From assembly GCF_012935715.1 (NCBI RefSeq), contig NZ_CP052860.1, positions 4,030,001 to 4,094,000 on the forward strand: a DNA stretch of 64,000 nucleotides, in the 5' to 3' direction. The stretch comes from Pseudomonas sp. ADAK13. GTDB taxonomy: Bacteria > Pseudomonadota > Gammaproteobacteria > Pseudomonadales > Pseudomonadaceae. The notes under the pieces were generated by a model. It was given only the letters and a program-made list of their open reading frames with translations, was not told where the DNA came from and made no database searches. Position numbers and translations under genes: made by a program. Numbering within the stretch: position 1 is the stretch's first letter; every line of letters starts with the position of its first letter. Below, piece after piece: positions 53,157-59,283 of this stretch.

Positions 53157-54083
53157 TTAGAGCTTGGCGGTCAACAGCGCTTCGAGTTTTTCCTGGTCGC
53201 GGGCGAACTGACGAATACCCTCGGCCAGTTTCTCGGTGGCCATCGCATCTTCGTTGGATTCCCAACGGAACTGCGCTTCGGTCAAGTGCACACGAGCTTC
53301 GCCCGCGTGGCCCGGCGCCAGCTTGCGCTCCAGTTTGCCGTTGTCGGCGGCCAGTTTTTCCAGCAAGTCCGGGCTGATGGTCAGGCGGTCGCAACCGGCC
53401 AGCTCCTCGATCTGGCTCAGGTTACGGAAGCTCGCACCCATCACCACGGTCTTGTAGCCATTGGCCTTGTAGTAGTTGTAGATGCGCGTCACCGACTGCA
53501 CGCCCGGATCATCGGAACCGGTGTAGTCGTTGCCGTTGGCCTTCTTGTACCAGTCGTAGATACGGCCCACGAACGGCGAAATCAGGAACACGCCGGCTTC
53601 AGCGCAAGCCACGGCCTGGGCGAAGGAGAACAGCAGGGTCAGGTTGGTCTGGATGCCTTCCTTCTCCAGTTGCTCGGCAGCGCGGATGCCTTCCCAGGTG
53701 GAAGCGATCTTGATCAGCACACGGTCGCGGCCAATGCCGGCCTTGTCGTACAGGTCGATCAGACGGTGCGCGCGCTTGAGTACGGCGTCGGTGTCGAACG
53801 ACAGGCGGGCATCCACCTCAGTGGAAATGCGGCCGGGCACCACTTTGAGGATTTCCTGGCCGACGGCCACCGCGAAACGGTCGCTGGCCAGGCCTACGTC
53901 ACCGTTGCAGTCGGCAACAGCCTCGTCCAGCAGCTTGGCGTAGCCTGGGATCGACGCGGCCTTGAGCAGCAGGGAAGGGTTGGTAGTGGCGTCTTGCGGC
54001 TTGAGCTTGGCGAGGGTAGAAAAATCGCCGGTATCGGCTACTACAGTGGTGAATTGCTTGAGTTGTTCCAGCTTGGAAGTCAT
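53157..54083 (-). CDS. tal: transaldolase
   Basis: A 308-residue class I aldolase of the non-oxidative pentose phosphate pathway. The Schiff-base Lys lies in [16 protein letters not shown] (about 133). Other family blocks: [43 protein letters not shown] and the C-terminal [23 protein letters not shown] 54083 ([10 protein letters not shown]) is the family start; the longer frame has no homology. Order rssBC-tal-dusA matches P. aeruginosa (remembered). Confidence 0.95.
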
Positions 54084-54274
54084 GGGCGTGCTCTGTCCTG
54101 TGGGTCTGATGACATTACCCGAGCGCTGACAGCCGCTCAAGGGCGCAAATGCATTCGATCGTTTGCGAGGGCAACAACCTGAAAACAGCCGTTTGAATCA
54201 CCGGCTACTGCTGGATAGGAGGCCAAAACAGCCGGCAGGTTCAACCCAACTGCCCGATGACCACCCCGCTAAAC

Positions 54275-54300
54275 TGTGGGAGCTGGCTTGCCTGCGATGA
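54275..54300. repeat. REP singlet upstream of tal
   Basis: TGTGGGAGCTGGCTTGCCTG then CGATGA, in the same orientation as the REP interrupted by the IS110 element 47 nt further on. Confidence 0.75.
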
Positions 54301-54377
54301 GGCCCTCAAAACTACACCAATCTCCCTGACACACCCCCACCCAAAATGTGGGAGATTCTATGGTTGAGGGGCAACCC

Positions 54378-55324
54378 TCAACCAACCTTTGGTTGGTATT
54401 CGCTTTGTCCTTTCAGCAATGCAAATACCACTCGAGCAAGCTTACGGGCCAGCATTACCAGTACCTGAGTGGTGCTATAACCCCGCGCCCGTTGTGCTTG
54501 ATAAAACTCCTTCCATGCAGCCGTTCGGCTGGCCGCCATTGCTGCGTTGTGCAAAAGACGACGCGCTTCTGAGTCGCCACGCTTGCTCAAGCTGCGACGA
54601 TTATCTTTCTGTCCTGACTTAGAAACGCGTAAATCCATACCCAAGAAAGCGATAAACGCGTCCGCGTTTCTAAAATCACCGCGTTGGAAGCTGGTAACCA
54701 AACGGGCCCCAGTCAAAAAGCCGATACCTTCAACTTTCAGGCAACGCTTTAGTTGATCCGATAGTCCAGCTTCTTTCAGCCGATCAGCGATCATCTTTTC
54801 AATCAGGCTTTCTAGCTTTTGCATCGACTTCATTTGCTCGGCAAAAGAGGCCTTCAGCAACGGCTCATTCGCCCAACTTTGAGTCAGGCTGACGCGTGCC
54901 TGAACCAGCGCCGCCCGGCGACGAAAAAGACTCAAAAGCTGGCGATACAGGGGAGATGGCGGCGTCCAGGGCGAAGTTCATCGGCTTCGTTTTTTAGATA
55001 GCGAGCAAGCAACTTGGCATCCTGGGCGTCGGTCTTAGCCCGGATATTCACACCTTTACGATAATGGCTGAGCTCATAACCGCCCACCATGTAGATCACG
55101 CAACCAGCTTCATAGGCCAGGTCAGCGAACTCCAGGTGATATATGTTGGTCGCTTCAATCGCAACGGACACAGCGCCCGGCAGGGCTTTCAGCCATTTTT
55201 TAATGGCGGTTTTGTTGTTGGGGATCACTTCCAACAGGTCGAGCTCGGCGTGGTAAATCACCAGCTCATTTTTAGCAACATCGACGCCAATGATCGGCTT
55301 TGAGACAGGAACTGGCATTGCCAT
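54378..55324 (-). pseudogene. IS110-family transposase, single-base frameshift
   Basis: The N-terminal DEDD domain is read from ATG 55324 to about 54970. It has Asp15 in IIGVDVAKNE, Glu57 in VAIEATN and Asp99/Asp102 in KTDAQDAKLL. The C-terminal transposase_20 part is read in another frame from about 54970 to the stop at 54378 (VEGIGFLTGARLVTSFQRGD, then FLGMDLRVSKSGQKDNRRSL). Around 54970 the first frame goes off after YLKNEADELRP. Adding one base there would give DELRPWTPPSPLYRQLLSLF and join the two. GGAGG lies 8 nt before the start. So the copy is dead unless the shift is a sequencing error. Confidence 0.85.
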
Positions 55325-55365
55325 GGGACTTCCTCCGGGCTATGGTTTTGAGCACTTGAAGGGCT

Positions 55366-55507
55366 CACCCAGAGGCGCAGGCTTGTTCCTATCGTCGGTC
55401 ATAGCCAGATGCATTCTTTATCGGCGCTTGGGTGAAAGGAGGAGGGGCGAAATCTCCCACGGTCTGTACTGCGCCAACAGTCAGAATCGGGCTTTGTCCC
55501 TCCTCCT
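55366..55507 (-). ncRNA. candidate IS110 bridge RNA, visible core
   Basis: Two stem-loops in the leader, as in bridge RNAs. Stem 1: AGGAGGAGGG (55437-55446) pairs with CCCTCCTCCT (55498-55507). Its loop holds CTCCCAC (55454-55460) and CGGGCTT (55488-55494). CTCCCAC is the reverse complement of the left flank GTGGGAG, and CGGGCTT is identical to the right flank. Opposite strand senses are what a target-binding loop needs. Stem 2: CACCCA (55366-55371) with TGGGTG (55429-55434) and GCGC with GCGC. Its loop holds ATTCT (55413-55417, like the element's left tip ATTCTATGG) and CTTGT (55382-55386, reverse complement of the right tip ACAAG). Precise RNA ends are unknown. Confidence 0.75.
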
Positions 55508-55587
55508 CCCTTCAAGTCCTAGCATACAAGCGGGCTTGCTCGCGAAAGCGTCCTGTCAGCCGCCAGATAAACCCACTGACACCCAAC

Positions 55588-56574
55588 TCACCGCCCCTCC
55601 AACAACTCCCCCGCCTTATCCAGCAACGCCAGCGGATCACTGGCCTTATGAATATCCACCGACAACAACTGCCGAAACTTCCGAGCCCCCGGAAAACCCG
55701 TCCCCAGTCCCAGAACATGGCGCGTGATGTGATGCATCGAGCCACCTGTCGCCAGATGCTCGGCTATATAAGGACGCAACTGCGCCAACGCCTCGGCGCG
55801 CGTGATCACCGGCGCAGTGCTGCCAAACAGCTGTTGATCCACCTCGGCCAGTAAATACGGATTGTGATAAGCCTCACGGCCCAGCATCACACCGTCGAAC
55901 GTCTGCAGATGCTCCTGGCACTGCTCAAGGGTCTTGATCCCGCCGTTGAGAATGATCTCAAGCTCCGGGAAATCCTGCTTCAACTGCGCCGCCACGTCGT
56001 AGCGCAATGGCGGAATGTCCCGATTCTCCTTCGGTGACAGACCTTCCAGAATGGCGATTCGCGCATGCACGGTGAAACTGGTGCAGCCCGCGTTTTTCAC
56101 CTGGCCGACGAAGTCGCATAGCTCGGCGTAACTGTCCCGGCCATTGATACCGATGCGGTGCTTTACCGTCACCGGGATCGACACCGCGTCCTGCATGGCC
56201 TTTACGCAATCCGCCACCAACGCAGGGTGTGCCATCAGGATCGCGCCGATCATGTTGTTTTGCACCCGGTCGCTGGGGCAGCCGACATTGAGGTTCACCT
56301 CGTCGTAGCCGGCGTCCTGGGCCATGCGGGCACAGGCGGCCAGGTCGGCAGGAACGCTACCGCCCAACTGCAAGGCAAGCGGGTGCTCGGCCTCGTTGTG
56401 GCGCAGGAAGCGTTCGTGGTCGCCGTGGAGGATTGCGCCGGTGGTCACCATCTCGGTGTAGAGGAGGGCGTTTTTGGACAGTAGGCGCAGGAAGAAGCGG
56501 CAGTGTCTGTCCGTCCAATCCATCATCGGCGCAACGGAGAAGCGGCGGGAGAGGGGAGCTTTTTGTAGGGGCAT
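55588..56574 (-). CDS. dusA: tRNA-dihydrouridine(20/20a) synthase DusA
   Basis: A 328-residue flavoenzyme of the Dus family that reduces uridine in the tRNA D-loop. FMN-binding TIM barrel motifs: FSVAPMMDWTDRHCRFFLRL, the catalytic Cys in NLNVGCPSDRVQ, VTVKHRIGINGRDSY, FTVHARIAILEGLSPKENR and ILNGGIKTLEQ, and FDGVMLGREAYHNPYLLAEV. The C-terminal RNA-recognition helices follow. It lies after tal in the same direction, now separated from it by the IS110 element. Confidence 0.95.
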   Translation of the reverse strand: MPLQKAPLSRRFSVAPMMDWTDRHCRFFLRLLSKNALLYTEMVTTGAILHGDHERFLRHNEAEHPLALQLGGSVPADLAACARMAQDAGYDEVNLNVGCPSDRVQNNMIGAILMAHPALVADCVKAMQDAVSIPVTVKHRIGINGRDSYAELCDFVGQVKNAGCTSFTVHARIAILEGLSPKENRDIPPLRYDVAAQLKQDFPELEIILNGGIKTLEQCQEHLQTFDGVMLGREAYHNPYLLAEVDQQLFGSTAPVITRAEALAQLRPYIAEHLATGGSMHHITRHVLGLGTGFPGARKFRQLLSVDIHKASDPLALLDKAGELLEGR

Positions 56575-59127: not shown

Positions 59128-59230
59128 GGCGTTTTTTTACGCCTGTATCATGTGTTATGGCGGCTGTGCGCGGGGCACTTCGGTGCGCCGGGTCCTTAGC
59201 CCTGGTCTTCCACACCTGCGTACAGCTGCC
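59128..59230 (+). ncRNA. structured leader RNA, C4-antisense-like
   Basis: GGCGT (59128-59132) pairs with ACGCC (59139-59143) across a T-run. GGCGGCTGT (59159-59167) pairs with ACAGCTGCC (59222-59230) with one G-U pair, enclosing a GCAC-TTCG-GTGC hairpin (59175-59186) and a CCGGG/CCTGG hairpin (from 59188). CTTCCACA (59207-59214) is the exact complement of TGTGGAAG, present at 59080-59087 and again at 59238-59245, upstream of the next start codon. This resembles phage-type C4 antisense RNA (from memory). The structure is well supported; the family name is not verified. Confidence 0.6.
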
Positions 59231-59283
59231 ACCCTCATGTGGAAGTGAGATTGGCAGTTCCTGAATAGTTAAGGAGCTTCGCC

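Follow-up and report, generated by a model that had tools for sequence, protein, structure and literature searches.

Guides in the leader of a Pseudomonas IS110-group element and their predicted choice of insertion site among REP types

Published work has already described the targeting of repetitive extragenic palindromic (REP) sequences by insertion sequences (ISs) of the IS110 family, as well as bridge RNAs, which covary with their targets, and reprogramming in nature. The window analysed here, a stretch of 64,000 nucleotides from Pseudomonas sp. ADAK13 (contig NZ_CP052860.1), carries a single IS110-group copy inserted in a REP, with its transposase on the minus strand, and raises the question of what chose this site from the several REP types that a Pseudomonas genome can offer. 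On the strength of sequence comparison we consider it very probable that this is an IS621-type element, in which the guides of a bridge RNA encoded in the leader upstream of the transposase gene choose the insertion site among REP types. What is added here is clean natural evidence of guides choosing among REP types; a literature search that covered few subscription journals and excluded bioRxiv found no paper on guides following the REP types of their hosts.

The host genome is one 7.30-Mb contig with four near-identical copies of the IS. Read in transposase sense, as are all sequences below unless the plus strand is named, all four copies have AAGCCCG-CT-TGTATGC ... ATAGAAT-CT-CCCAC, where the element runs from TGTATGC to ATAGAAT and CT is the core dinucleotide. 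Its non-coding sequence amounts to 204 nt upstream of the transposase gene and 23 nt downstream, from stop codon to core. The transposase matches those of IS621 (8wt6, E 4.6e-20) and ISCro4 (9t56, E 5.9e-19). In the intact genomic copy it has a DEDD RuvC-like domain (PF01548, 8.8e-20) and PF02371 (4.1e-18), and the two halves found in the window match the same domains (1.5e-13 and 2e-18, respectively), which bears out the original assignment to the IS110 group.

Within the leader, two perfectly complementary strands, AGGAGGAGGG and CCCTCCTCCT, close a loop that carries on the plus strand CTCCCAC (55454-55460) and CGGGCTT (55488-55494). The original prediction gave every coordinate and letter of the stem, the loop heptamers and the flanks correctly, base for base. 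It also proposed the IS621-type arrangement, which holds, but only when the loop is read on the minus strand, a step that it did not state. The order is then AAGCCCGAT, a hairpin, and GTGGGAG. AAGCCCG is identical to the left target and is predicted to pair with the bottom strand, while GTGGGAG complements CT-CCCAC and is predicted to pair with the top strand. The bottom-strand guide thus lies 5′ of the top-strand guide within one loop, around the core CT; this order has been reported for IS621 (PMC11208160) and for the IS110 type (PMC11187229). A first-order Markov model fitted to the 204-nt leader was used to generate 200,000 random leaders. AAGCCCG followed by GTGGGAG was found in 73 of these (3.7e-4), and both halves were matched in any sense and order in 0.16%. 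Because REP-like letters are common in such genomes, the match in the leader is by itself only suggestive, and covariation was therefore sought among relatives.

A transposase search of 398 genomes of the genus, at E 1e-30 or better, identified at least 57 positive genomes among the matches listed. A contig scan of named genomes gave 79 loci, mainly from Pseudomonas but including 7 from Methyloversatilis, one from a Nevskiaceae bin and one from another gammaproteobacterial bin, and a further 80 copies were added to reach a total of 193 loci. The ends were located by the terminal motifs TGTATG and ATAGAAT, independently of the guides, and both ends and both guides could be called by fixed rules at 163 of the 193 loci. 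The remaining 30, affected by contig edges, truncations or variant motifs in the leader, have no call for an end or for a guide; where these were read by eye, the left guide matches in L188, L190 and L193 and does not match in L029. The core is CT at 162 of 163 left ends and 162 of 163 right ends. The exception on the left (L025) is a wrong end call, and on the right L066 has TT where CT was expected. L005 duplicates L004. There are 146 unique sites, and removal of L025 and L056 left 144 distinct sites for the covariation analysis.

The left guide agrees with the left target at all seven positions in 76 of these sites, at six in 41, at five in 15, at four in 5, at three in 3 and at two in 4. 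When the 19 guide types are compared, the mean identity is 5.62 of 7, against 4.42 on permutation, and none of 100,000 permutations was as high. Among the 146 unique sites, guide AAGCCCG is found at AAGCCCG in 22 of 28, AAGCTCG at AAGCTCG in 7 of 7, and AGGCTCG at AGGCTCG in 35 of 47, with 8 more at AAGCTCG, which requires one G:U wobble. AAGCCAG followed by CA is at AAGCCAG in 6 of 9 sites and at AAGCCCG in the other 3. The fits are poor for CAGTTCG, whose 5 sites are spread over three targets, and for CAGTCCG, with three targets among 6 sites. The right half behaves similarly: guide GTGGGAG goes with CCCAC in 135 of 138 sites and GTAGGAG with CCTAC in 6 of 6, the latter sites belonging to G094 and to L093 of the Nevskiaceae bin, which are distant from each other; Fisher's test gives p 2.5e-9, a value not corrected for relatedness. 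TAGTTCG combined with GTAGGAG is found at AAGTTCG and CCTAC in 5 of 5 sites. The analysis supports the originally predicted loop with one guide for each half of a REP target, on opposite strands, and covariation of guides with targets among the relatives.

The hosts themselves provide a further comparison, as they differ in the REPs that they offer. Four REP 14-mers, plus a fifth, were counted in 21 genomes. These counts vary hugely within the genus, GTGGGAGCGGGCTT being present in 0 to 1252 copies per genome. In the window genome there are 102 copies of GTGGGAGCGGGCTT and 498 of GTGGGAGCTGGCTT, with 0 and 1 of the other two types, and all four IS copies are in the rarer type GTGGGAGCGGGCTT, which is the one matched by the guide (chance 8e-4). 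An unused GTGGGAGCTGGCTT is located at 54276, about 65 bp from the insertion in the window. The suggestion that the element is programmed for the commonest palindrome of its host is therefore not supported in this genome. In G367, 3 of 5 insertions are in a type that holds 10 of the 420 counted sites (p 1.3e-4). When insertion sites were drawn within each host from the four REP types, the observed fit of 6.90 of 7 was not reached in any of 200,000 draws (null 6.53, sd 0.06); this comparison used 60 of 68 insertions, the 8 outside the four counted types being dropped. It is concluded that insertions within hosts track the guide and not REP abundance. Across hosts, the guide corresponds to the commonest of the four counted types in 11 of 17, which is above shuffles (p 0.004), in hosts that are related. 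This comparison omits G070, G094, G018 and G217, whose guides are outside the four types, and enters G290, which has two guide types, under the commoner one. The agreement is a tendency and not a rule. In G094, both guides match the REP 14-mer GTAGGAGCGAACTT, present in 124 copies there and in 0 to 2 copies in each of the 20 other genomes.

An uninterrupted target was found in G261, which carries an element with 98% identity at the protein level. Here the same neighbourhood is present without the IS, and the REP ...AAATGTGGGAGCGGGCTTGCTCGCGAA... is in place (L205). This empty site came from a directed search of 8 genomes. Among 24 general relatives, 10 (the window genome included) have the dusA-side sequence, both neighbours are present at four loci of the other genomes, and GTGGGAGCNNGC is in place at none of these.

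The predicted fold of the minus-strand leader has an energy of -77.6 kcal/mol (z -3.36; none of 200 shuffles was as stable) and contains the target-loop stem. RNA alignments used 45 of 57 distinct leaders. Two structures are near-invariant over these 45, namely the hairpin that separates the guides and a stem, GCGC/GCGC, that closes a second loop; the hairpin has 7 consensus pairs, of which 5 are invariant in 45 of 45 and one has a double-sided change in 4. The target stem changes its sequence between subgroups and stays paired, for example as GGGCGGGAC/GTCCCGCCC and GGGTGGGAC/GTCCCACCC, and at one of its pairs 27 of the 45 leaders have A-U and 15 have G-C.

Several observations count against target choice by the guides. 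Of the 12 sites with four or fewer matches, 7 are variant leaders in which the guide call at fixed distance seems to have shifted, but 5 are genuine misfits (L007, L071, L096, L163, L164). The original prediction named related copies with the same leader outside REPs as the case that would speak against it, and there is one such copy, L007/L035, which has the same guides and is located at TTGGTAG, where its left target matches 2 of 7 guide bases. The two loci, L007 (G186:C10:236061-237005) and L035, hold a 96% identical copy between two 18-bp repeats CTCCCACATTTGGTAGCT, and AAGCCCA-CT-CCCAC begins the left repeat copy, an arrangement that suggests either rearrangement or duplication of a long target. 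The rule for the right guide requires a final GGAG, so that variation at that end is invisible. Independent contrasts agree in direction, with none reaching p 0.05 alone (means over 7 pairs of 4.3 same and 0 opposite for position 2, and 5.8 same and 1 opposite for position 5; 2.5 same and 0 opposite, of 3 pairs, for position 6). Transposase pairs that are closest in sequence (94-100% identical) but differ in guide do not discriminate, because their guides are one wobble-compatible base apart and they have a common target. Global RNAalifold gives just 18 pairs, 3 of them with double changes. This weak signal is explained by shifts in the register of the target stem between subgroups, and energies of own versus swapped duplexes were therefore used instead; these favour the stem, since in 22 of 23 cases the duplex with the native partner is more stable than the average of those with foreign partners. 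Finally, wobble asymmetry, used to identify the RNA strand, gave 27 versus 17 sites and 13 versus 11 types.

These points have to be weighed with the alternatives. The transposase protein could itself contact and recognise REP DNA, in which case the leader would resemble a REP by coincidence or through capture of flanking sequence; it was proposed in 2006 that transposases may recognise REPs in the way that regulators recognise palindromes (PMC1525189). Nearly all elements are indeed at the same edge of a REP-like site, with CCCAC kept in 135 of 144, and several of the closest transposase pairs share a target despite different guides. We nevertheless regard this explanation as highly improbable, given that insertions track the guide against REP abundance, that no permutation tried paired guide types with targets as well as the real arrangement, and that the right half changes with the right guide in all 6 cases. 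The Methyloversatilis pairs are an exception to the sharing of targets. Among them, L095 and L106 have transposases that are 97.7% identical, yet their guides are CAGTCCG and GAGCTCG and their targets AAGCCCG and AAGCTCG; each target fits its guide if wobble is allowed and the first position is disregarded. It is just as hard to credit that the pattern reflects shared host composition, with one dominant REP per host and guides that resemble it by descent. The agreement in 11 of 17 hosts is in its favour, but the guide differs from the commonest type in the other 6, the insertions in the window genome (4 of 4) and G367 (3 of 5) go to minority types, and the within-host test accounts for abundance.

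The functional RNA could also be the antisense strand, which would regulate translation and have no part in targeting. A precedent is Asr9 of ISPpu9, an antisense RNA over the 5′ untranslated region of the transposase gene that raises its translation and transposition (PMC8450116), and the wobble comparison is indecisive between the strands. However, the IS110 order, with the bottom-strand match first, is obtained from the sense strand only (PMC11187229), and regulation leaves the covariation with the flanks unexplained, so that we find this explanation very improbable. Sense and antisense RNAs could both exist.

The predicted selection of the site by guides in a sense-strand bridge RNA leads to a question of history. 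A tree of 76 transposases requires at least 23 changes of left-guide type. The target guides of one Pseudomonas IS lineage may have been repeatedly rewritten, sometimes both together, to track the REP repertoire of each new host, a proposal that we hold no more firmly than its contrary. If it is true, G:U wobble would allow one guide to use two REP types and so act as a stepping stone, and a mismatch with the local majority REP, as in the window genome, would indicate recent arrival. Bridge RNAs are programmable guides of recombination, and the lineage is a natural experiment in which relatives of one enzyme carry about 19 guide types. In the hosts, REP sites that match a guide and sites that do not can both be counted. 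Genome sequences can then show how guides evolve and how far mismatches are tolerated, and it becomes possible to predict where REP-targeting ISs are placed.

By analogy with IS621, the leader would be transcribed in transposase sense to give a bridge RNA that contains both a target loop and a donor loop; RNA production, recombinase binding, strand chemistry, donor guides and a circular form would likewise follow that element. The second loop is a putative donor loop. It contains AGAAT and ACAAG, which fit the element ends, but these ends served as fixed anchors and barely vary, and without variation in the matching letters the donor role rests on the likeness to IS621. A related IS, L029 (G091), retains the target loop in its leader and has lost the predicted donor loop. 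Of 43 predicted circle junctions, 13 have TTG 16-18 nt upstream of TATG(G/T)T, against 4% in shuffles (the window element is outside the 43 owing to a length filter), and a promoter scan of the linear element gave nothing clearly exceeding chance.

Three of the four genomic copies, including that in the window (54378-55324, L002, L003), have an identical one-base frameshift in the transposase, and the fourth has an intact frame of 315 amino acids. The window copy, as its sequence reads, therefore cannot encode a full transposase in one frame, and the intact copy elsewhere in the genome could serve it in trans. The three frameshifted copies occupy three different sites, each a proper target. 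There are three possibilities: mobilisation of a broken copy by the intact one, spread of the frameshift by gene conversion, or an assembly error in a short one-base run. As to the first, the bridge RNA of IS621 acts in trans in an assay (PMC11208160); as to the second, two variable positions are present in all four combinations.

Among known systems, IS621 of E. coli likewise has a bridge RNA, with guide-target covariation shown over thousands of orthologues (PMC11208160). It differs in that the element here targets another REP, has a related transposase (at the E value given above) that is frameshifted in the window, and has a right guide of 7 nt including the core, although some IS621 orthologues also have longer ones (PMC11208160). 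ISPpu9 and ISPpu10 of P. putida resemble the element here as IS110-family members, each having its 7 copies all inserted at a single position of REPs, with two-base direct repeats, AG for ISPpu9 (PMC1525189, PMC8450116). On its published description, ISPpu9 differs in having two small RNAs, of which one is antisense (PMC8450116). The seekRNAs of ISEc21 and ISPa11 also come from a non-coding region and match both target strands (PMC11187229). Natural reprogramming is described there as well. ISPa11 targets P. aeruginosa REPs, but it is of IS1111 type, with the RNA downstream and the opposite order of matches (PMC11187229).

Features of the insertion sequence and its leader in the window
Feature	Position	Strand	Basis
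IS110-group insertion sequence, 1174 bp between the copies of the core dinucleotide (AG on plus strand, at 54353-54354 and 55529-55530; CT in transposase sense)	54353..55530	-	four near-identical genomic copies share exact ends
Left genomic flank GTGGGAG (right target CCCAC plus core CT, transposase sense)	54348..54354	+	direct reading; genomic copies
Core AG plus right genomic flank CGGGCTT (left target AAGCCCG, transposase sense)	55529..55537	+	genomic copies; uninterrupted REP in relative (L205)
Transposase, N-terminal half, DEDD domain PF01548, frame broken	54932..55324	-	domain match
Transposase, C-terminal half, PF02371, different frame	54378..54935	-	domain match
Leader encoding predicted bridge RNA	55325..55528	-	fold z -3.36; conserved across 45 aligned leaders
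Target-loop closing stem, 3′ strand	55437..55446	-	AGGAGGAGGG; stem retained in relatives with other sequences
Target-loop closing stem, 5′ strand	55498..55507	-	CCCTCCTCCT; as for 3′ strand
Left target guide (AT faces core)	55486..55494	-	covaries with left target
Conserved hairpin between guides, TCTGAC...GTACAGA	55463..55485	-	consensus pairs
Right target guide GTGGGAG	55454..55460	-	covaries with right target
Predicted donor-binding loop, closed by GCGC/GCGC (55424-55427 with 55375-55378)	55375..55427	-	consensus pairs; donor role by analogy with IS621
Candidate left donor guide AGAAT (element right end ATAGAAT)	55413..55417	-	sequence match only
Candidate right donor guide ACAAG (complement of core CT plus left-end TGT)	55382..55386	-	sequence match only

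The IS is flanked by genes that we take to be transaldolase-like (53157-54140) and dusA-like (55588-56574). The Rfam covariance check suggested originally was uninformative, no family being found over the leader at gathering scores. The sole Rfam match in the window is a C4 antisense RNA (RF01695, 63.6 bits) at 59153-59236 on the plus strand.
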